DNA of 41,880 nt from positions 1 through 41,880 of the IMG/VR virus record IMGVR_UViG_3300042914_003281; one strand, given 5' to 3'. Each line of letters starts with the position of its first letter. Position 1 is the first letter of the stretch. Below, piece after piece: positions 3,759-14,271 of this stretch. The notes under the pieces were generated by a model, which did not search any database, had not been told where the DNA came from, and saw only the letters and a program-made list of their open reading frames with translations. This stretch comes from a virus. The position numbers and the translations under genes are program-made.

Positions 3759-4298
3759 ATGAGTGGTGATGAAGTGGGTGGCATCCTTGCCGATCCGTGG
3801 CGCAGCCTGCGGTGGCGGGACTACCGTGCCGAGGTGCTGCGGTTGAGCGCGTACCGGCCTGACCGTGCGGCGTCTGCGGCGCGGCGCGGGGTGCTGTCTG
3901 AGCTCGGAGAGGCGCTTGGGGCGCTCGATGACCGGCGCGTGCTCAAGAAGGGCGCCGAGGTCTTCGTCGACCTGCGGGCCGAGCTGGGCGACGTGCTGTG
4001 GTACGCGGCGCTTGAGTCGGAGGGGGACGGCGTCGGGCTGTGGACCGCCGACCCTGTGCGGCCCATCTACGAGATGACCCTCACGGATCGGGTCGACCAC
4101 GTCGCGCACGCGATCGGCGTGGCGATGGGGGACGTGCTCGGTGGCCTGCCGCTGGCGATGGTTGCGACGTCCATGTGCCGTGCCGCGGGGTTCAGCGCCC
4201 AAGAGGTCGCGTTCTACAACCTTGAGAAGCTGCGGGCCCGGCAGTCGGCCGGGACGCTGCATGATCGCGAGGCCCGGGTGCCGGGCGGAGGTGTTTGA
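3759..4298 (+). CDS. MazG-like nucleotide pyrophosphohydrolase, 179 aa
   Basis: The pair LSELGEAL (about residue 46) and AELGDVLWYAAL (about residue 74) matches the ExxE...ExxD metal-binding helices of the MazG/all-alpha NTP pyrophosphatase family. The C-terminal FYNLEKLRARQSAGTLHD also matches the usual MazG ending. These enzymes cleave NTPs or dNTPs to the monophosphate and pyrophosphate; phage versions are thought to adjust nucleotide pools or alarmones. The ATG at 3759 has GGAGG five bases upstream. It is the first gene of an operon with the sliding clamp, whose start codon overlaps this stop (TGATG). Confidence 0.85.
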   Translation: MSGDEVGGILADPWRSLRWRDYRAEVLRLSAYRPDRAASAARRGVLSELGEALGALDDRRVLKKGAEVFVDLRAELGDVLWYAALESEGDGVGLWTADPVRPIYEMTLTDRVDHVAHAIGVAMGDVLGGLPLAMVATSMCRAAGFSAQEVAFYNLEKLRARQSAGTLHDREARVPGGGV

Positions 4299-5518
4299 TG
4301 TTTGACTGTGTCGTGAACGGCGATGTTGTGCGCCTTGTCGTCGGGCTGGCCGCTTCGGCGGCGGCGCGGGATCGGGACGTGTCCGGCGGGGCGTCGGCGG
4401 ACGTGCTGATGATCTTGACGCGGGATGGCCTGTCGGCGGTCGGGACCGACGGCGTGGCGCGCCTGACGACGCCGGCCCTGTCGGTCACGGAGTGCCGCGG
4501 GGTCGGGCGGGTCGCGGTCCCTGCGGCCCGGATCGTCCAGGTGCTCGATGCCCTGAAGGGCGCCGGGCCCGTGGCGCTGAAGGCCGGCGGCAAGGACGGG
4601 CGCGTCCTGACCGTCAAGGCCGGCAAGACGGAGTACAAGCTGCAGTGCGGCGAGGTTGACGACTTCCCGCCGGCCAAGGACGAGGTCACCTACGGCGCTG
4701 GCATCACGCTCGGGGCGGCGGCTCTGTCGGACGCGCTCGGGGCGGTGATCCCGGCCGTGTCCGACGACGTCAACCGGCAGGGCCTGAACGGCGCGGCGGT
4801 AGAGCACGTCGCCGGGCCGGACGGGCGCGCCGCCGGGGCGCTGCGGTGGGTCGGGACGGACGGCAGCCGCTTGACGTGGGCGGAGGTCATCGTCGACGGC
4901 GATGCGAAGGTCGACCCGGATGCGGTGCGCATCCCGCGGACGTCGCTCTTCGGCAAGGCGCAGGCGCACGCGCTGCGGCAGGTCATCCGCGGCAACGGTG
5001 ACCCGGACGGCGCGACCGTGACGCTGGCCTGGGGCCCCCGGCACCTGCGCGCCGAGGTCGGCGGGGTGGTCGGCCCCGACGGCGTGCGGGCGCAGGCGAC
5101 GGTGGTTGAGTACCGGATGATCGAGGGCCAGTTTCCGGACTACCGGTTGGTCTTGCTCCCCGAGTCCTCGATCCGCATCACCGCGACCGTTGACGGCGGG
5201 GCGCTGGCGGCGGGCCTGTCCCGTGTCGGCCTGTGCGCCGACGACAAGAACAGCAGCATCCGCGTCGCGCTGAACGAGGGCCGGATCGGACTCGCGGCGG
5301 TGTCGCTGAAGGCAGGCAGCGCGCAGGAAGAGGTCGACGCCGAGGTCGACGGGGCGCCGCTGCAAACCGGCTTCAACGCGCGGTATCTGGCCGATGCCGT
5401 CAAGGCTGCGGGCGCGGGGCCGGTGACCTTCCGCTTGGCCGGCGCGCTCGATCCGGTCGCGTGGTCCGGGGCGCGGGCCGGGGTCGGCGGCGTGGTCATG
5501 CCGATGCGGCTCGACTGA
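4298..5518 (+). CDS. dnaN: Bacterial-type DNA polymerase III beta sliding clamp, 406 aa
   Basis: The product has the length of a three-domain beta clamp (usually about 366-400 residues) and ends GVVMPMRLD, matching the conserved clamp C-terminus. Further matches are EGQFPDYRLVLL before the third domain, and ALNEGRIGLAAVS and FNARYLADAVKA within it. As a dimeric ring it would tether polymerases and other proteins to DNA. The start is the ATG inside TGATG, preceded by GGCGGAGGTG. The domain core is clearer in the C-terminal two thirds than in the N-terminal domain. No polymerase gene accompanies it, so it must either load onto host replicase sites with the host clamp loader or serve phage proteins. 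Confidence 0.92.
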   Translation: MFDCVVNGDVVRLVVGLAASAAARDRDVSGGASADVLMILTRDGLSAVGTDGVARLTTPALSVTECRGVGRVAVPAARIVQVLDALKGAGPVALKAGGKDGRVLTVKAGKTEYKLQCGEVDDFPPAKDEVTYGAGITLGAAALSDALGAVIPAVSDDVNRQGLNGAAVEHVAGPDGRAAGALRWVGTDGSRLTWAEVIVDGDAKVDPDAVRIPRTSLFGKAQAHALRQVIRGNGDPDGATVTLAWGPRHLRAEVGGVVGPDGVRAQATVVEYRMIEGQFPDYRLVLLPESSIRITATVDGGALAAGLSRVGLCADDKNSSIRVALNEGRIGLAAVSLKAGSAQEEVDAEVDGAPLQTGFNARYLADAVKAAGAGPVTFRLAGALDPVAWSGARAGVGGVVMPMRLD

Positions 5519-6585
5519 TGGCCGCCCCGCGCTGTCTTGAGCTCTTCGCCGGGGCTGGGGGCGCTGCCCTCGGCCTCGGCGCCGCGGGCCTTGAGCACGC
5601 CGCTCTGTGCGAGTGGGACCGGCACGCCTGCGCTACCCTGCGCGCGGCTGGCTTGGGCCCGGTCGTCGAGGGTGACGTCAGGGACTTGCAGGCCATCGCC
5701 GCGGTCGCTGGCGAGTCGGTGGACGTGCTCTGGTCGTCGTTCCCGTGCCAAGCGTGGTCGACGGCTGGGGCGCGCAAGGGGGCGCACGATGGCCGCAACG
5801 GCTGGCCGTGGACCGTCGACGCGCTGGACCGGTTCCGCCCGGCGTGGTTCCTCGGCGAGAACGTGCGCGGGCTGCTGCTTCACCGCAGCGGTTGCACCGC
5901 GGCGGGCGGGCAGCGCGGGCTCTTCGGCACGGCCCCGGCGGAGGACTGCCCCGGCTGCTACTTCGAGCGCGTCATCATGCCGGACCTGCGGGCGCGCTTT
6001 GCGCACGTCGGTTGGTGGCTCCTCGATGCCGCCGACTTCGGCGTGCCGCAGCACCGTCGGAGGGTCATCCTCTGGGCGGGGCCCGCGCCGTTGGTGGAGC
6101 CTGTGCCGACGCATGGGCCGGGCCGGGCGCAGGGTTGGGTGTCGATGCGGGAGGCGTTGGCACTTGGCGAGACCGACGGCGTGGCGCAGTACAAGCGCAG
6201 CAGACAGGGTCAGGTGGCATGGGAAGAGGTGCCGCTTGACGACCCTGCCAACGCAGTCGGCTGCTTTCCCGAGGCCTGCGGGGTGCCGTGGCTTGACCGT
6301 CCCTCCCCTACCGTCTCGGCGGTCGGTGAGCAGAAGGGCAGCGGACCAGGCGGGAACCCCGAGAAGATGCAGCGGGCCAGTGATGCGCTGTACCTTGGCA
6401 CCGGCCGCCGCCGATTGACGGTCGCCGAGTGCGCGCGCCTGCAGGACTTCCCCGCCGGGCACCCGTGGCAGGGCGGGGTCGGGGCGCAGTATCGGCAGGT
6501 CGGGAACGCCGTGCCGCCGCGGCTTGCTGAGGTGGTGGGGCGGGCGTTGATGACGGCGATTGAGGATGTCCGGGGTCTGTCTTGA
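5518..6585 (+). CDS. DNA (cytosine-5) methyltransferase, 355 aa
   Basis: All main C5 methyltransferase motifs are present in order: LFAGAGG (motif I, residue 9), SFPCQAWS with the catalytic Cys77 (IV), GENVRG (VI, about 114), VPQHRRRVIL (VIII, about 177) and YRQVGNAVPPRL (X). It transfers a methyl group from S-adenosylmethionine to cytosine. The start overlaps the clamp stop (TGATG), so the two are translationally coupled. Between motifs VI and VIII an extra cysteine-containing segment includes QRGLF (residues 132-136), matching the QxxLF clamp-binding consensus. No restriction nuclease lies nearby. The target sequence cannot be read from the protein. Confidence 0.95.
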   Translation: MAAPRCLELFAGAGGAALGLGAAGLEHAALCEWDRHACATLRAAGLGPVVEGDVRDLQAIAAVAGESVDVLWSSFPCQAWSTAGARKGAHDGRNGWPWTVDALDRFRPAWFLGENVRGLLLHRSGCTAAGGQRGLFGTAPAEDCPGCYFERVIMPDLRARFAHVGWWLLDAADFGVPQHRRRVILWAGPAPLVEPVPTHGPGRAQGWVSMREALALGETDGVAQYKRSRQGQVAWEEVPLDDPANAVGCFPEACGVPWLDRPSPTVSAVGEQKGSGPGGNPEKMQRASDALYLGTGRRRLTVAECARLQDFPAGHPWQGGVGAQYRQVGNAVPPRLAEVVGRALMTAIEDVRGLS

Positions 6586-6588
6586 CCG

Positions 6589-6616
6589 TTGACCGGCCCC
6601 CGGCGTGTGGTACGCT
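6589..6616 (+). promoter_or_regulatory. Promoter of the ribonucleotide reductase gene
   Basis: TTGACC (6589-6594), 16-base spacer, TACGCT (6611-6616); a second TTGACC lies seven bases further upstream. It starts just after the methyltransferase stop codon. The predicted transcript has a short leader of about 26 bases containing GGAGG six bases before the ATG. I saw no room for a cobalamin riboswitch. Confidence 0.7.
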
Positions 6617-6648
6617 GGGGGTCTGCCTTTGCTTTGGGGAGGTGTGTG

Positions 6649-8748
6649 ATGGGTGTGGAGGGTGTGACCGGTGCCGTGTGGGCCGATGATAAGGCCGCGG
6701 CTGAGGACGTTGTCGCGGGGTGGCTCGCGGACCTGAACGACGACGACGCGCTGGTGGGTCTGTCGCCGGGCGCGCGGCTGGCGTCGGAGATCGTGCGGCT
6801 GCGGACCTACGCGAAGATCCGGCCGGACGGGCAGCGCGAGACGTGGCGGCAGACTGTGACGCGCTGGGGCAGCTACATGCTCCACCGCCTGCGGGCGCAG
6901 ACCGGGGACGCGGGCGCGACCGACGAACTGCGCCGGGCGGTCCGGGCGGTGTTTGCGCGGGAGGTGATGCCGTCGATGCGCGGGTTGTGGGCGGCGGGTG
7001 ACGTGCTCGACCACAACGACATCGCGCTCTACAACTGCGCTTTCGCCCCGGCGGACTCGCTCGCGGTGTTCCATGAGTGCCTGTATGTCCTGATGCACGG
7101 GACCGGCTTCGGGTTCAGCGTTGAGCGCCGCTTCGTCGACCGCCTGCCGGTGCCGCTGGCGCCCGCGGACTTCAGCGCGCCGCCCGTGCACGTCGTCGAG
7201 GACAGCACGGAGGGGTGGGCTGAGGCTGTGCAGGTCGGTGTGGATGCGTGGTTCTCCGGGCGCGATGTGTCCTTCGACACGTCCGGGGTTCGCCCCGCCG
7301 GCGCGCCGCTGCGGACCAAGGGCGGCGAGGCGTCCGGCCCTGAGCCGCTTCTGCGCTACCTGGGCGGCCTGCGCACGGCGCTGCAGATCGCGGGGGCCGC
7401 GGGTCGGCGCCTGCGGCCTGTCGAGGTTCACGACCTGCTCTGCCTCGCGGCGCGGGCTGTGCAGGTCGGCGGGGTCCGGCGGTCGGCGATGATCAGCTTC
7501 AGCGACGTCGAGGACGCCGGTGGTGACAACGCGATGCGCTGGGCGAAGCACTACCCGGCGGCGATGGGTCTGGGCGCGGTCATCCCCGCCGAGCGCGGGC
7601 AGGCGAACAACTCTTGGGTCTGGCCTGATGGGCTCACCCGGGAGGACTTCGACTATGAGTGGCAGGTGCTCCAGACGTCGAAGGCCGGCGAGCGCGGCAT
7701 CTTCTCGCCGGCGCGCATGGCCTACCGGGGCGTCGAGCTCCGGGCGAACCCGTGTGTCGAGATCGGCCTCGCGTGGCAGGATGCCGCGGCGCCCGATGAC
7801 GGGTCGGGCGGCGGCCAGTTCTGCAATCTCAGCAACGTCATCCTGCGGCCTTGGGACGACTTGGACAGCGCGCGGCGAAAGGTCGCGCTGGCGGCCTTCA
7901 TCGGCACGCTGCAGGCTTCGTGCACGCGCTTCCGGGGTCTGCGCGCGGGCTGGGGCGAGGTGACCCGGCGGGACGCGCTGTTGGGCGTGGGTCTGTCCGG
8001 GCAGGCGGACTGCCCGCAGGTTGTGTCGTCGGTGGCAAAGCTGCAGGACTTGAACCGCTTGGCCGTCGACGCGAACGCATGGTGGGCGGGCATCCTCGGG
8101 ATCAACGTCGCGGCCGGGGTGACCTGCGGCAAGCCGGACGGCAACAGCAGCGTGTTCCTTGGCTGCTCTTCGGGCATCCACGCGCACCACGCCCGGCGCT
8201 ACCTGCGCCGGATCACCGTCAGCGCGAAGTCGCCGATCTGCGCGGTCCTGCGGGCTGCCGGGGTGCCGTGCATCCCTGAGTGGGAGAGCGACGCGCTGGC
8301 CTTGGCGGCGGGCACTAAGGCCCCCGAGGACGTCGGCGGGTGGCTCTTCGAGCTGCCGATGGAGGTCGGCGCATCCGCGTTGGTGCGCGCCGGGGAGACC
8401 GCGGTGGGGTTGCTCGACCGGTTGGACGTGATCAACACGGGGTGGTTGGCTGAGAAGGGCCACAACCAGTCCGTGACCGTCAGCGTCCGGGCGCACGAAT
8501 GGGACGGCGTGCGGGAGCGGGTGTGGGAGCGCGGGTCTGCCGGGCGCTTGGGCGGGGTGTCGTTCCTGCCGGACGATGGTGCGGTGTACTACGGCACGCC
8601 GCTCACTGACCTGACCGAAGCGGAGTACGCCGCGCGCGTCGCCGCCCTGCCGGCCGTTGATTGGTCGACCCTGGCGCTGTACGAGAACGGCGTCAGCGAG
8701 GCCGCGCAGACCTTCGCCTGCACGTCCGGGGCGTGCAGCATCGTGTAG
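6649..8748 (+). CDS. nrdJ: Adenosylcobalamin-dependent (class II) ribonucleoside-triphosphate reductase, 699 aa
   Basis: All five active cysteines of the monomeric class II enzyme can be placed. Cys130 (YNCAF) and Cys392 (FCNLS) are the reducing pair; Cys369 in NPCVEI with Glu371 is the thiyl radical site; and Cys691/Cys696 sit in the C-terminal tail TFACTSGACSIV. GTGFGFSVE and GKPDGNSS also fit the family. It reduces ribonucleoside triphosphates to dNTPs using adenosylcobalamin and oxygen-independent chemistry. The length is slightly shorter than the roughly 740-residue Lactobacillus-type enzyme. It has its own promoter and GGAGG site and ends a rightward block with two hairpin terminators behind it. 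It needs host cobalamin and a thioredoxin-like reductant. Confidence 0.95.
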   Translation: MGVEGVTGAVWADDKAAAEDVVAGWLADLNDDDALVGLSPGARLASEIVRLRTYAKIRPDGQRETWRQTVTRWGSYMLHRLRAQTGDAGATDELRRAVRAVFAREVMPSMRGLWAAGDVLDHNDIALYNCAFAPADSLAVFHECLYVLMHGTGFGFSVERRFVDRLPVPLAPADFSAPPVHVVEDSTEGWAEAVQVGVDAWFSGRDVSFDTSGVRPAGAPLRTKGGEASGPEPLLRYLGGLRTALQIAGAAGRRLRPVEVHDLLCLAARAVQVGGVRRSAMISFSDVEDAGGDNAMRWAKHYPAAMGLGAVIPAERGQANNSWVWPDGLTREDFDYEWQVLQTSKAGERGIFSPARMAYRGVELRANPCVEIGLAWQDAAAPDDGSGGGQFCNLSNVILRPWDDLDSARRKVALAAFIGTLQASCTRFRGLRAGWGEVTRRDALLGVGLSGQADCPQVVSSVAKLQDLNRLAVDANAWWAGILGINVAAGVTCGKPDGNSSVFLGCSSGIHAHHARRYLRRITVSAKSPICAVLRAAGVPCIPEWESDALALAAGTKAPEDVGGWLFELPMEVGASALVRAGETAVGLLDRLDVINTGWLAEKGHNQSVTVSVRAHEWDGVRERVWERGSAGRLGGVSFLPDDGAVYYGTPLTDLTEAEYAARVAALPAVDWSTLALYENGVSEAAQTFACTSGACSIV

Positions 8749-8788
8749 ACTACCGCCAGCGCACCCGCCAAGCGTGGGAGGCGTCACG

Positions 8789-8824
8789 GGGCCGTCGGGG
8801 GTGACCTCGGCGGCCCTTGCTTGC
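8789..8824 (+). terminator. Hairpin terminator candidate 1
   Basis: Nine-pair stem GGGCCGTCG / CGGCGGCCC with one G-T wobble and a 10-base loop, followed by TTGCTTGCG. It lies 40 bases after the reductase stop codon. Confidence 0.55.
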
Positions 8825-8946
8825 GCGCGGGGCGGTGGTGGGGTATGGTTGGGGCGCTGCAGGGTGCTTACGGCGCGCGGGCCTTGGGCCCTCCGGCTGC
8901 AAACACCTCGGGCCGCTCGGGTCACACCGGGCGGCCCTTTGCGTTT
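8821..8946 (+). ncRNA. Possible small RNA between a weak promoter and a terminator
   Basis: TTGCGC (8821-8826), 17-base spacer and TATGGT (8844-8849) form a weak sigma70-type promoter. A transcript starting near 8856 would run about 90 bases into the strong hairpin at 8910-8937. It contains a further short hairpin, GGGCC-TTG-GGCCC. No open reading frame with a ribosome site fits. The promoter match is poor enough that chance is a real alternative. Confidence 0.25.
8910..8946 (+). terminator. Hairpin terminator candidate 2
   Basis: Eleven-pair stem GGGCCGCTCGG / CCGGGCGGCCC with one T-G wobble and a 6-base loop, followed by TTTGCGTTT. It is the most terminator-like of the three related hairpins because of its T-rich tail. 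Confidence 0.65.
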
Positions 8947-9007
8947 GGGGCGCGGTGTGGTAGGCGGGCAGGCGCACGGGCCGGGAGGGGCCTCGGCCGG
9001 GCGCGGT

Positions 9008-9040
9008 GGCCGTCCGGGTAGTCCGGGCGGCCGCTTGCGT
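9008..9040 (+). terminator. Hairpin terminator candidate 3
   Basis: Ten-pair stem GGCCGTCCGG / CCGGGCGGCC with one wobble and a 5-base loop, followed by GCTTGCGTT. The right arm and tail nearly repeat those of the hairpin at 8910-8946. Confidence 0.5.
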
Positions 9041-9058
9041 TGGGGCAGGGCAGCACGA

Positions 9059-9088
9059 AGCCCCGGCGCCGGGTGGGGCGTCGGGGCT
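9059..9088 (-). terminator. Hairpin after the leftward methyltransferase gene
   Basis: A 12-base arm pair (AGCCCCGACGCC / GGCGCCGGGGCT on the minus strand) with one mismatch and a 6-base loop, 26 bases past the stop codon at 9115. It lacks a T tract in the leftward direction, so its role is inferred from position. Confidence 0.4.
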
Positions 9089-9114
9089 CGGGGTGGATGG
9101 GCGCGGGTGGTGGG

Positions 9115-10053
9115 CTATCGCGGGGTGAAGAGCGACGGCTGGCGCTTGGTGCCCTCCTGTGCGCGCAGGTTCTCGGCGGCGCGGTTGAAGTAGGACTCTT
9201 TGAGCTCGATGCCCACGAAGCGCCGGTCATTGCGCAGGCAGCCCACGCCCTCGGAGCCGACGCCGGCGAAGGGCGACAGGCAGACTTCGCCCGGGTTGCT
9301 GTAGAGCACGCAGAGGCGGTGGATCACGTCAAGCGACAGCGGGCACATGTGCTTTTCGTCGGCATCCTCGCGGGCGGCAGCGACGTTCAGGGTGTTCGTG
9401 TGCTGGACGTCCATCCAGACCGGGCTAGCCCACTTCTGCCACTGTTCCAGCGGGAAGGTTTCGGACGTGTGCGGCACGGGCTTGACGAAGTCCTCTTCGC
9501 CCTCCGCGGCCCACTTGCGGAAGATCAGCACGTACTCAGGCATCCCGGCGCCGCTGAACGTGCTGTCCGTGCGGATTTGCTTGTAGAGCAGGCGCATGTT
9601 GTTGGTCTTGCGCTGCTCAATGACGGGATCGGTCCAGAGCACGTACTCACAGGCGTACTGCCAGCCTTCCTCCTCGTGAACGCGGATCAGGTCGCCCCGG
9701 AAGTCGTGCCAGCCGGCGCGGCCGTGGCTGCCCTTGTAGCGGATGATCTGCTTACAGTGGACGGCGCAGATCCGGCCGGGGCGGGTCAGGCGGTAGAGCT
9801 CGCGGGCGACGAAGCGATAACCCTCGATGAAGTGGTCTTCGCTGTCGACGTTGCCCAAGTCGCGGGCGCTGTCGCTGTAGGTGTAGACGTTGGCGAAGGG
9901 CGGCGAGAACAGCGCGAGGTCGACGCTGTGCGCGGGAAGCTGCCGCAGGACTTCGACGCAATCGCCGTTGTAGAGGGTGAAGTCTTCGCCGTGGGCGGAC
10001 CCGAGGCAGGCGATGGGCGCGGGGTTGGTGCGGTCGGTGGGTTCGGTCGTCAT
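9115..10053 (-). CDS. DNA N6-adenine/N4-cytosine methyltransferase (SPPF type), 312 aa
   Basis: Motif IV LFSPPFANVY is near residue 58, and motif I SPFAGVGSEGVGC with VGIEL follows near the C-terminus, the beta-class order. An SPPF/SPPY catalytic motif is compatible with N4-cytosine or N6-adenine methylation, and the sequence alone does not decide. The last residues are RQPSLFTPR: QPSLF (305-309, at 9127-9141) closely matches the QLxLF pentapeptide that docks proteins on beta clamps. The ATG at 10053 uses the shared GGAGCCGACC initiation sequence. It lies 16 bases after the SNF2-like helicase gene and is probably co-transcribed with it. Confidence 0.92.
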   Translation of the reverse strand: MTTEPTDRTNPAPIACLGSAHGEDFTLYNGDCVEVLRQLPAHSVDLALFSPPFANVYTYSDSARDLGNVDSEDHFIEGYRFVARELYRLTRPGRICAVHCKQIIRYKGSHGRAGWHDFRGDLIRVHEEEGWQYACEYVLWTDPVIEQRKTNNMRLLYKQIRTDSTFSGAGMPEYVLIFRKWAAEGEEDFVKPVPHTSETFPLEQWQKWASPVWMDVQHTNTLNVAAAREDADEKHMCPLSLDVIHRLCVLYSNPGEVCLSPFAGVGSEGVGCLRNDRRFVGIELKESYFNRAAENLRAQEGTKRQPSLFTPR

Positions 10054-10069: not shown

Positions 10070-11464
10070 TCAGCGGGTGACAAGCCACGCGGGGACGCGG
10101 GCTTGGTGGGTTGGGTGGTACGGGTCGCGGTCGTAGGACCGGGCCACGGCGCGGCGGCTCGCGGCGAACATCTCGATTTTCATCGCTTCGTGATCGTCGG
10201 CCTTGCGTTCGATCACGGCCCAGATCGGCGTCTCCGTCTCGGCAGCAATGACGTGGACGTCGACCGGGCGGGCCTGTCCGAAGCGCCAGCATCGGCGGAC
10301 GGCCTGATAGAACTGCTCATAGCTGTAGGACAGGCCGATAAAGCCGACGCGGGCGCAGTGTTGCCAGTTGAGGCCCATGCCGGCGATGCCCGGCTTGGTG
10401 ATCAGCACGCCCCCGCGGTCGGTGAAGCCCAGCAAGCGGTCGGCCTTGGCCTCCGGGGTGTCGTTGCCCCGGACGTCGACGGCTTCGGGTAGAACAGCGC
10501 GCAGTGCGTCGGCCTCGTAGTTGGTCTCGCACCAAAGTATCCAGGGCTCGGCAGGCTCAGCGCGCACCAACGCGGCGAGGGCAGCAGCGCGGTCCTCGGT
10601 GGTCTGGCGCTTCTCGCGGTGCAGCCCGGTCGCGGAGAGGTCAGCCTGCCGGAAGAGCATCCCGTCGGCGCGGCCGGTCGTCGTGTCGACCTTGACCGTG
10701 TGGCGGTGGAGGTTGAGGTCGGGCAGCGCGTACCCGGCGTCCTCGAACGGGCCCATGTCCGACGGCCGGCCGATGCAACGGGCCCAGGACGTCACCCAAT
10801 CCCAGAAGGGCCGGACGGCGTGGCCTTTGAGCTTGTACTTGCCGGCCTCGGACTGATCGCTGATGAACCAGCGGGCCAGCATCCGGTGTGAGTCCATCAC
10901 GCCAAGGAACTCGGAATGGTTGCCCAACTCGGTGTGGTCGTTCGGGGCGGGGGTCGCGGTGCACGCCAGCTTGTAGGCGGTTGCAGCGAAGGACCGGATC
11001 AGGGCGCGCTTGATCGCCCCGGTGTAGTTCTTCAAGATGGACGACTCGTCAAGGACAACGCCTGCGAAGACGTCGGCGTCCAGCTTGTCGAGGCGGTCGT
11101 AGTTGCAGACCGCGATCAGCCCGGGGCGCACTTCGGATGCGTCCCTGACCTGGGCGACGTCGGCGATGCGGAATTTGGCCGCCTCGCGGACCGTCTGCGC
11201 GGCCACGGCAAGCGGCGTCAGGATCAGCACCGGGCGGCCGGTGTGGGCGCGCACCGCGGCGGCCCAGTGAAGTTGCATGCCGGTCTTGCCGAGGCCGGTG
11301 TCGGCGAAGATCGCCGCGCGGCCCTGGTGGACAGCCCAGCGCACGATCTCGCGCTGGAAAGGGAAGAGCGCGCAGTCATCGGGCGGCGCCCACGCGAAGC
11401 CCGCGGGGTGGGCTTCGGTGCGCTTGGCCTCCAGAAAGGCGCGGTAGAGGTCGGTGTCGTTCAT
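10070..11464 (-). CDS. SNF2-like superfamily 2 helicase/ATPase, 464 aa
   Basis: Walker A ADTGLGKT (residues 54-61), DESS (139-142) as motif II, TATPAPND (motif III), and the motif V/VI region LITKPGIAGMGLNW and QAVRRCWRFGQ identify an SF2 translocase close to the SNF2 group. It couples ATP hydrolysis to movement on duplex DNA. Many phages carry such a protein next to a methyltransferase, as here, and it may remodel replication or recombination intermediates. The ATG at 11464 follows GGAGGAAC. It has its own promoter at 11504-11532. Confidence 0.92.
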   Translation of the reverse strand: MNDTDLYRAFLEAKRTEAHPAGFAWAPPDDCALFPFQREIVRWAVHQGRAAIFADTGLGKTGMQLHWAAAVRAHTGRPVLILTPLAVAAQTVREAAKFRIADVAQVRDASEVRPGLIAVCNYDRLDKLDADVFAGVVLDESSILKNYTGAIKRALIRSFAATAYKLACTATPAPNDHTELGNHSEFLGVMDSHRMLARWFISDQSEAGKYKLKGHAVRPFWDWVTSWARCIGRPSDMGPFEDAGYALPDLNLHRHTVKVDTTTGRADGMLFRQADLSATGLHREKRQTTEDRAAALAALVRAEPAEPWILWCETNYEADALRAVLPEAVDVRGNDTPEAKADRLLGFTDRGGVLITKPGIAGMGLNWQHCARVGFIGLSYSYEQFYQAVRRCWRFGQARPVDVHVIAAETETPIWAVIERKADDHEAMKIEMFAASRRAVARSYDRDPYHPTHQARVPAWLVTR

Positions 11465-11558: not shown

Positions 11559-12146
11559 TCACCGACTGCCCTTCGCGCGCCAAGGTGGAAGCAGGCTGAT
11601 CCGTGACGTGCTGCCCGGTCGCACGCCCTCCTCCCACACACAGAGGACCGACCCGCAGGTGTCCCCCGACGTCAGCGCGGCGCCACCGGGGCCACCCCAG
11701 CGCGGCCGGATGGGGCTCACTACCATGTGGTGCGGCGGGTCCTCGCCCGCCATCAGCTGACCGATCGTCGTCTCGCGCAGCAGCAGGGCCACGACCGACG
11801 CGCCGGCCCGGTCTTGTAGGGAGCGCAGATCGCGCACCGTGTCGTAGATGCCCTGGTAATGCGGGTTCGTGACGATCCACGTCCGACACGGCAGGCCGGC
11901 CGGTGGGCGCCACGTCGACACCGGCACGCGGTCGCAGGGGTAGCCGGGCGCGGCGTCCGGGTCGATGTCGCACCCGAGCACCTTCACACCGGGGGCTGCC
12001 CGCTGCGCCGCACGCCCGAAGGCCCCGCCGCCCGAGCAAGGCTCAAGGACCACGTCGGGTGCGTCGAAGCAGTCGATCAGCCAACGCATGCAAGCCGATG
12101 CGAGGCGGTCGTCGGTGTAGTAGCGGTCAAGGGGATCGCGGGTCAT
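11559..12146 (-). CDS. Putative DNA adenine methyltransferase, NPHY type, 195 aa
   Basis: VLEPCSGGGAFGRAAQ (about residue 33) followed by VLGCDIDP gives the S-adenosylmethionine-binding motif I and acidic loop. IVTNPHYQGIYD (about residue 91) occupies the place of the catalytic NPPY, with the second Pro replaced by His. The order (motif I before IV) fits the gamma-class or Dam-like arrangement. The protein is short and has no obvious target-recognition domain, so it may act with loose specificity or have lost activity. The start overlaps the previous stop (ATGA), and GGAGCCGACCCC precedes it. Confidence 0.75.
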   Translation of the reverse strand: MTRDPLDRYYTDDRLASACMRWLIDCFDAPDVVLEPCSGGGAFGRAAQRAAPGVKVLGCDIDPDAAPGYPCDRVPVSTWRPPAGLPCRTWIVTNPHYQGIYDTVRDLRSLQDRAGASVVALLLRETTIGQLMAGEDPPHHMVVSPIRPRWGGPGGAALTSGDTCGSVLCVWEEGVRPGSTSRISLLPPWRAKGSR

Positions 12147-13356: not shown

Positions 13357-14271
13357 TCAGCCCGGGTCAACGTCACCGCAGGCGGCCGTCGCGCGGCGCG
13401 GGTCGCCTTTGACGAACACGAGGACGTTTTGGTGGATCTTGACGTTCTTGCGGCTGGCCGTGAATTGCTTGTTCATGCGCGCCGCGCCGCTGCCGATGGG
13501 TGTCTGCAGGATGATCTCGTTGTAGTACCCGGCGCCCGCGTCCATGAACGCCCGGACCGTCTCGCCGACGAAGTTGCGGTAGAGCCCGCGCGGGCAGCGG
13601 ATTTCACCGACGACGATGGCGGCGAAGCGGTCCGGCCGCAGGCGGGCCCATGCCGCGGCGATGATCGCGCGGTAGGCTTCAAGGAAGTCCGGCCATGTCA
13701 TCGCGGACAGGTCCGCGGGGTCATCGCTGTAGCGTTCAAGGTCGCCGTAGGGCGGGCAGGTCAGCATGAAGTCCGCGTCCGGGGCGCCGGCAAGGGCATC
13801 CCGCGCGTCCCCGGTCACCCAGACGGGCGGGGCGGGCACGGGGATAGCCGCGGCCTGCGCGCGGTTCGCATCGACCTGCTCCGCACGCAGGTCGCAACCC
13901 CAGTAGGGCCGGCCCAGCGCGCCGGACACGATGCCGCGGACGGACCCGCCGGCGAAGGGGTCGATGACCTGCCCGGCCGGCGGCGCGTACCAGCGGACCA
14001 GCATCTCGGCGAGGACCGGGTCGAAGATGCTGATGTTGGTTGTGCCCTTGCTGTCGCGCAGGCCGCCAGACAAGCCCAGAACGTCTTGGTCGCGGCCCTC
14101 CTCTGATTTCAACCCGAGCGCCACCCATGCCCGCTTGCGTTCCTGCCAGTCACCGGTCTGCGCGTTCAGCACTGTGAACGGCTGCACCCCGAAGCGGGCG
14201 GCGGTCACCGACGACGCGGGCGGCGGGCGGCGGGCGCCGAACAGGTCCGTGCCGAACAGGGCGGCGCTCAC
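13357..14271 (-). CDS. DNA N6-adenine/N4-cytosine methyltransferase (CPPY type), 304 aa
   Basis: VIDPFAGGSVRGIV (motif I, about residue 102), YWGCDLR, and MLTCPPYGDLERYS (motif IV, about residue 168) show a methyltransferase in which motif I comes before IV. FVKGDPRRA and VGEIRCPRG are typical of phage DNA modification methylases of this kind. The N-terminal region (residues 1-75) probably adds recognition. The GTG start overlaps the previous stop (GTGA). It is one of four methyltransferases in the window and has no linked nuclease. Confidence 0.9.
   Translation of the reverse strand: MSAALFGTDLFGARRPPPASSVTAARFGVQPFTVLNAQTGDWQERKRAWVALGLKSEEGRDQDVLGLSGGLRDSKGTTNISIFDPVLAEMLVRWYAPPAGQVIDPFAGGSVRGIVSGALGRPYWGCDLRAEQVDANRAQAAAIPVPAPPVWVTGDARDALAGAPDADFMLTCPPYGDLERYSDDPADLSAMTWPDFLEAYRAIIAAAWARLRPDRFAAIVVGEIRCPRGLYRNFVGETVRAFMDAGAGYYNEIILQTPIGSGAARMNKQFTASRKNVKIHQNVLVFVKGDPRRATAACGDVDPG

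Follow-up and report, generated by a model that had tools for sequence, protein, structure and literature searches.

Candidate sliding clamp-binding motifs in two unrelated families of phage DNA methyltransferases

Two DNA methyltransferases encoded by a 41,880-base IMG/VR viral contig (GC content, ~71%; the whole of this stretch is referred to here as the window) carry short peptides, QPSLF and QRGLF, that, judged by their sequence, are very probably clamp-binding motifs. The best explanation for these peptides, and one that we hold with fair confidence, is that they are putative docking motifs through which the enzymes are recruited to a sliding clamp, so that methylation of nascent phage DNA is coupled to replication. 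With less assurance, we also lean toward a broader conclusion: at least two unrelated families of phage methyltransferases appear to have repeatedly and independently gained beta-clamp-binding motifs, and would together make up a wide and so far undescribed group of clamp clients, coupling methylation to replication, including on phage clamps with a canonical pocket. The motifs, their enrichment among relatives, the predicted disorder of the segments that contain them, and the conserved pocket of the clamp are the observed part of this mechanism.

As originally predicted, the window encodes a beta-type (DnaN-like) sliding clamp of its own (positions 4298 to 5518, plus strand; open reading frame 4295/4298 to 5518). 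In profile searches, the protein matched PF02768 above the cutoff (1.8e-18) and phrog_947 over residues 40 to 406 (2.7e-44), and beta clamps from the PDB matched it down to 1.7e-28, with the sequence match to beta clamps extending along the protein. PF00712 scored below its cutoff against the protein, and a PF00712 search of the window DNA missed the clamp gene, although the protein profiles detect the clamp. Alignment to the E. coli clamp revealed that 15 of 18 residues of the peptide-binding pocket are identical in the phage protein, versus 23% identity overall. Two segments of the pocket are readily located on the plus strand, namely, TDGSRL (positions 4856 to 4873; TDGHRL at residues 172 to 177 of E. 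coli DnaN) and the C-terminal VVMPMRL (positions 5492 to 5512), which is identical to residues 360 to 366 of E. coli beta. The subsite I residues were taken from a published review (PMC11139829); the other positions scored are those generally assigned to the pocket of the E. coli clamp.

The first methyltransferase gene, which encodes a C5-cytosine enzyme (positions 5518 to 6585, plus strand; PF00145, 3e-44; phrog_116, 1.3e-61), begins within the end of the clamp gene: the TGA stop of the clamp (5516 to 5518) and the ATG of the methyltransferase (5518 to 5520) overlap as TGATG, which makes the proposed translational coupling of the two genes plausible. The second, an N4/N6 enzyme of the SPPF type, is encoded on the minus strand (positions 9115 to 10053; PF01555, 8.7e-16; phrog_67, 2.2e-38), directly downstream of a gene for an SNF2-type helicase (positions 10070 to 11464, minus strand; phrog_62, 3.2e-58). 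The window also encodes other replication proteins: MazG, a RecE/YqaJ-type exonuclease, a DUF927 primase-helicase, a second helicase, and a ribonucleotide reductase with weak matches to B12-type Pfam profiles. Among the window proteins scanned, none was recognized as a DNA polymerase; thus, the phage clamp would probably depend on host machinery for its loading and use. Two additional methyltransferase-like genes lie on the minus strand, both lacking QxxLF: one at positions 11559 to 12146 (phrog_799, 4.7e-10) and one at positions 13357 to 14271 (phrog_498/phrog_12517; PF01555, 1.1e-07). The product of the latter has ALFGTDLFG at its N terminus, i.e., DLFG without a Q, and this DLFG is not consistently present in annotated relatives.

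Both peptides were found where the original prediction had placed them. QRGLF (positions 5911 to 5925, plus strand) corresponds to residues 132 to 136 of the C5 enzyme and lies in a loop (positions 5902 to 5931, plus strand) flanked by His/Cys and CPGC residues, within which residues 129 to 138 have a predicted pLDDT of <50. QPSLF (positions 9127 to 9141, minus strand) corresponds to residues 305 to 309 of the 312-residue SPPF enzyme, which ends in KRQPSLFTPR; its location in the tail therefore stands, while the residues beyond the F number three (TPR) rather than the four first counted. The tail that contains it (residues 304 to 312; positions 9118 to 9144, minus strand) has no predicted secondary structure and a pLDDT of ~47 to 54. 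The placement of the peptides in a non-core loop and a tail is thus consistent with predicted disorder at both sites, with the caveat that low pLDDT from shallow alignments suggests disorder and does not prove it. Both peptides fit the rule for beta clamp motifs, Qxx[L/M][F/L], in which position 2 is tolerant (PMC11139829); here, this position is occupied by P or R and not by the preferred aliphatic residue. In agreement with the original prediction, which noted no such peptides in the helicases, primase, SSB, or exonuclease, QxxLF occurs in no other likely protein of the window. Separately, residues 123 to 147 of the C5 enzyme form a loop framed by His/Cys and CPGC residues that is variable among relatives and may be a zinc knuckle.

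Could these peptides be products of chance or composition, without function? For this genome alone, the numbers allow it: two QxxLF peptides in 11,336 amino acids, versus 0.52 in shuffled sequences, is near expectation (P = 0.10). The probability that both methyltransferases carry the peptide, and that of its falling within the C-terminal 10 residues of the SPPF enzyme, are each ~0.0005, but both tests are post hoc. The indication that the motif is more than chance thus comes from family conservation and not from a single genome. In a dereplicated set of viral SPPF relatives, Q..LF falls within the last 15 residues in 14 of 45, versus a mean of 0.30 in shuffles. The result was similar in a second set gathered by conserved core patterns, in which the tail played no part in selection (21/66; shuffle expectation, 0.36). 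SPPF enzymes in bacterial-genome loci, many of which are probably prophages, carry QxxLF in the last 15 residues in 24 of 77 cases, whereas other proteins of the same loci, used as controls, almost never do (4/434 and 2/373); several of these QxxLF-bearing controls resemble methyltransferases, and one is an overlooked copy of the SPPF family. Overall, enrichment over shuffles is ~20- to 60-fold in several separately fetched sets. Relatives therefore keep the peptide beyond chance, and a chance origin, which is disfavored for the SPPF family as a whole, strikes us as very unlikely.

The enrichment does not extend to methyltransferases in general. Among 30 chromosomal PF01555 proteins of the same hosts, the motif was confined to relatives of the SPPF enzyme, and it was absent from the tails of all ~24 non-SPPF chromosomal N6/N4 methyltransferases, indicating that it is a trait of a phage-linked family. 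Within that family, roughly two-thirds of members lack the strict QxxLF in their last 15 residues. Some have no such motif at all (DELLG tails). In mycobacteriophage relatives, the tail is MPSLFD or VPTLLD, both without the Q, even though the mycobacterial DinB1 motif is QESLF. The homologue from an archaeal virus, whose tail reads QASLFTF, was excluded from the evidence, as this sequence can be read as either a beta motif or a PIP-like box.

In annotated relatives, the SPPF enzyme usually adjoins or is fused to an SNF2-type helicase, and in several phages, the helicase/methylase is annotated as a single polypeptide. The helicase encoded at positions 10070 to 11464 is therefore a likely functional partner of the SPPF enzyme, and the arrangement suggests that DNA translocation or remodeling is also a function of this unit. 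It also raises the alternative that the C-terminal QxxLF docks onto the adjoining helicase, within one protein or between partners, and not onto a clamp. We consider this unlikely, because the tail or its Q-less form persists where the two activities already reside in a single chain (mycobacteriophages Charlie and Saal, Hestia, and vir525), because the linker is variable and predicted to be disordered, and because C5 enzymes, which are not fused to such a helicase, have the same motif in loops.

The C5 family is enriched in the motif as well. Q..LF is present in 21 of 41 C5 representatives (shuffle mean, 1.05; maximum in 500 shuffles, 6), where it occupies three different loops. Site 1, the Cys-flanked loop near residue 132 that carries QRGLF or QEGLF, is filled only in the window and in L081/L194 and L195; these three related sequences all come from clamp-carrying phages, and conservation beyond chance is accordingly weaker for this site. 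Most other motif-bearing relatives instead have QxDLF or QxxLF after PTHGxP, near residue 190 (site 2), and one (L223) has Q..LF at residue 228. Site 2 is empty wherever site 1 is filled. Only 2 of 30 chromosomal C5 enzymes contain Q..LF, in both cases as QGTLFF within the apparent catalytic core. A motif that switches loops while the fold stays constant is expected of a docking peptide or short linear motif, and when the same motif occurs at different positions on unrelated folds, the simplest explanation is a partner in common.

We then considered which clamp this partner might be. The original prediction tied the methyltransferases specifically to the phage's own clamp and proposed checking whether QxxLF is kept only in phages that also carry dnaN; this part of it was not supported. 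We compared 48 records of >30 kb that encode an SPPF enzyme. A loosened tail motif occurs in 6 of the 11 records with a phrog_947 clamp and in 13 of the 37 in which no clamp gene was detected (Fisher P = 0.30); the records are mostly IMG/VR contigs of uncertain completeness. Homologues that accompany a clamp gene and lack QxxLF, which the prediction had counted as evidence against itself, also exist in part (L009, L013, L042, L080, and L315). Because the motif is kept without a phage clamp, its natural partner is presumably the beta clamp in general and usually that of the host. Canonical tails do tend to be found with phage clamps whose pocket is of the E. coli type (P = 0.02, and 0.07 once the set was dereplicated), a covariation that is only suggestive because it is based on 16 pairs. 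Host lineages show a related trend, qualitatively and with kinship ignored: the clamp segments of alphaproteobacterial DinB lack the Q, as do most alphaproteobacterial SPPF tails, and other lineages mostly retain the leading Q in both. The trend is imperfect, since mycobacteriophage tails are Q-less despite the DinB1 motif of their hosts. Collectively, these sequence comparisons suggest that phages couple methylation to replication mostly through the host clamp. In Arthrobacter phage Hestia (L255), genes for the helicase/methylase, an HTH protein, and DNA polymerase III beta are consecutive, which is another physical link of a methyltransferase with a phage clamp.

We propose that the QPSLF tail of the SPPF enzyme and the QRGLF loop of the C5 enzyme would insert into the hydrophobic peptide pocket of a beta-type clamp. 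In most relatives, this clamp is probably that of the host; in this phage, its own clamp and that of the host are both candidates. Docking would concentrate both enzymes where DNA has just been replicated, and new phage copies may then be methylated shortly after they are made, before methylation-sensing systems, restriction enzymes included, can act on them. The same contact could serve another end. Phage inhibitors of the clamp exist, e.g., Twort gp168, and the pocket in question is the one that host polymerases use. A clamp-binding toxin, SocB, has also been described (PMC9690074). Thus, the motifs might bind the host clamp to block or divert host replication, in competition with Pol III and other clients, leaving methylation incidental. 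However, the motif sits on two unrelated methyltransferase families whose catalytic-domain motifs are conserved, and such conservation would be superfluous in a mere inhibitor; we therefore regard this alternative as improbable.

Clamp-recruited methylation has partial precedents. The known clients with a beta-clamp-binding motif (CBM), namely, Pol II, Pol IV, Pol V, Pol III alpha, MutS, MutL, and Hda, likewise carry a short Qxx[L/M][F/L] peptide within a tail or loop that is disordered, and the residues of the pocket that they use are conserved in the phage clamp; these clients, however, are polymerases, repair proteins, and regulators, whereas the putative clients here are methyltransferases. 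One of the nearest parallels is DNMT1-PCNA, in which a methyltransferase uses a short clamp-docking peptide for replication-coupled methylation (PMC9690074), the arrangement proposed here. DNMT1 maintains CpG methylation via a PCNA-binding motif, while the phage enzymes belong to two unrelated families and carry a beta-type motif. Transposases that bind the beta clamp show that enzymes of mobile elements can reach the host fork via QxxL(x)F (PMC5371812), in that case for transposition and not base methylation. The plasmid enzymes M.EcoGIX and M.BceJIII are also element-borne N6-adenine methyltransferases with activity tied to replication; their partner is Pol I, for which the authors name the clamp as a known contact, and a further host protein is suspected (PMC7736820). 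A point of difference is that they are single-strand specific. Words that start with "methyl" are absent from a 2024 beta clamp review (PMC11139829), and we found no description of methyltransferases as clients of a bacterial clamp in the open literature. The novelty of this class is provisional, as our search covered mainly open papers.

C-terminal QxxLF or QxxIF was also seen in other phage proteins (L090, L096, L239, L310, L332, and L387), which by eye comprise a DPPY methyltransferase, a probable C5-like enzyme, an apparent RuvC-type resolvase, RecT, Rha, and a dUTPase. By their sequences, these are possible further clamp clients.

Phages must methylate fresh copies of their DNA ahead of host restriction, and we know of no agreed account of how orphan phage methyltransferases keep up with replication. 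A clamp-docking tag would be a concrete and mutable answer, in that methylation would follow the fork or not according to a few residues of a tail. DNA methyltransferases are also a likely new class of beta clamp clients, in parallel to DNMT1-PCNA, and the docking motif could be used to recognize replication-coupled enzymes by their sequence alone.
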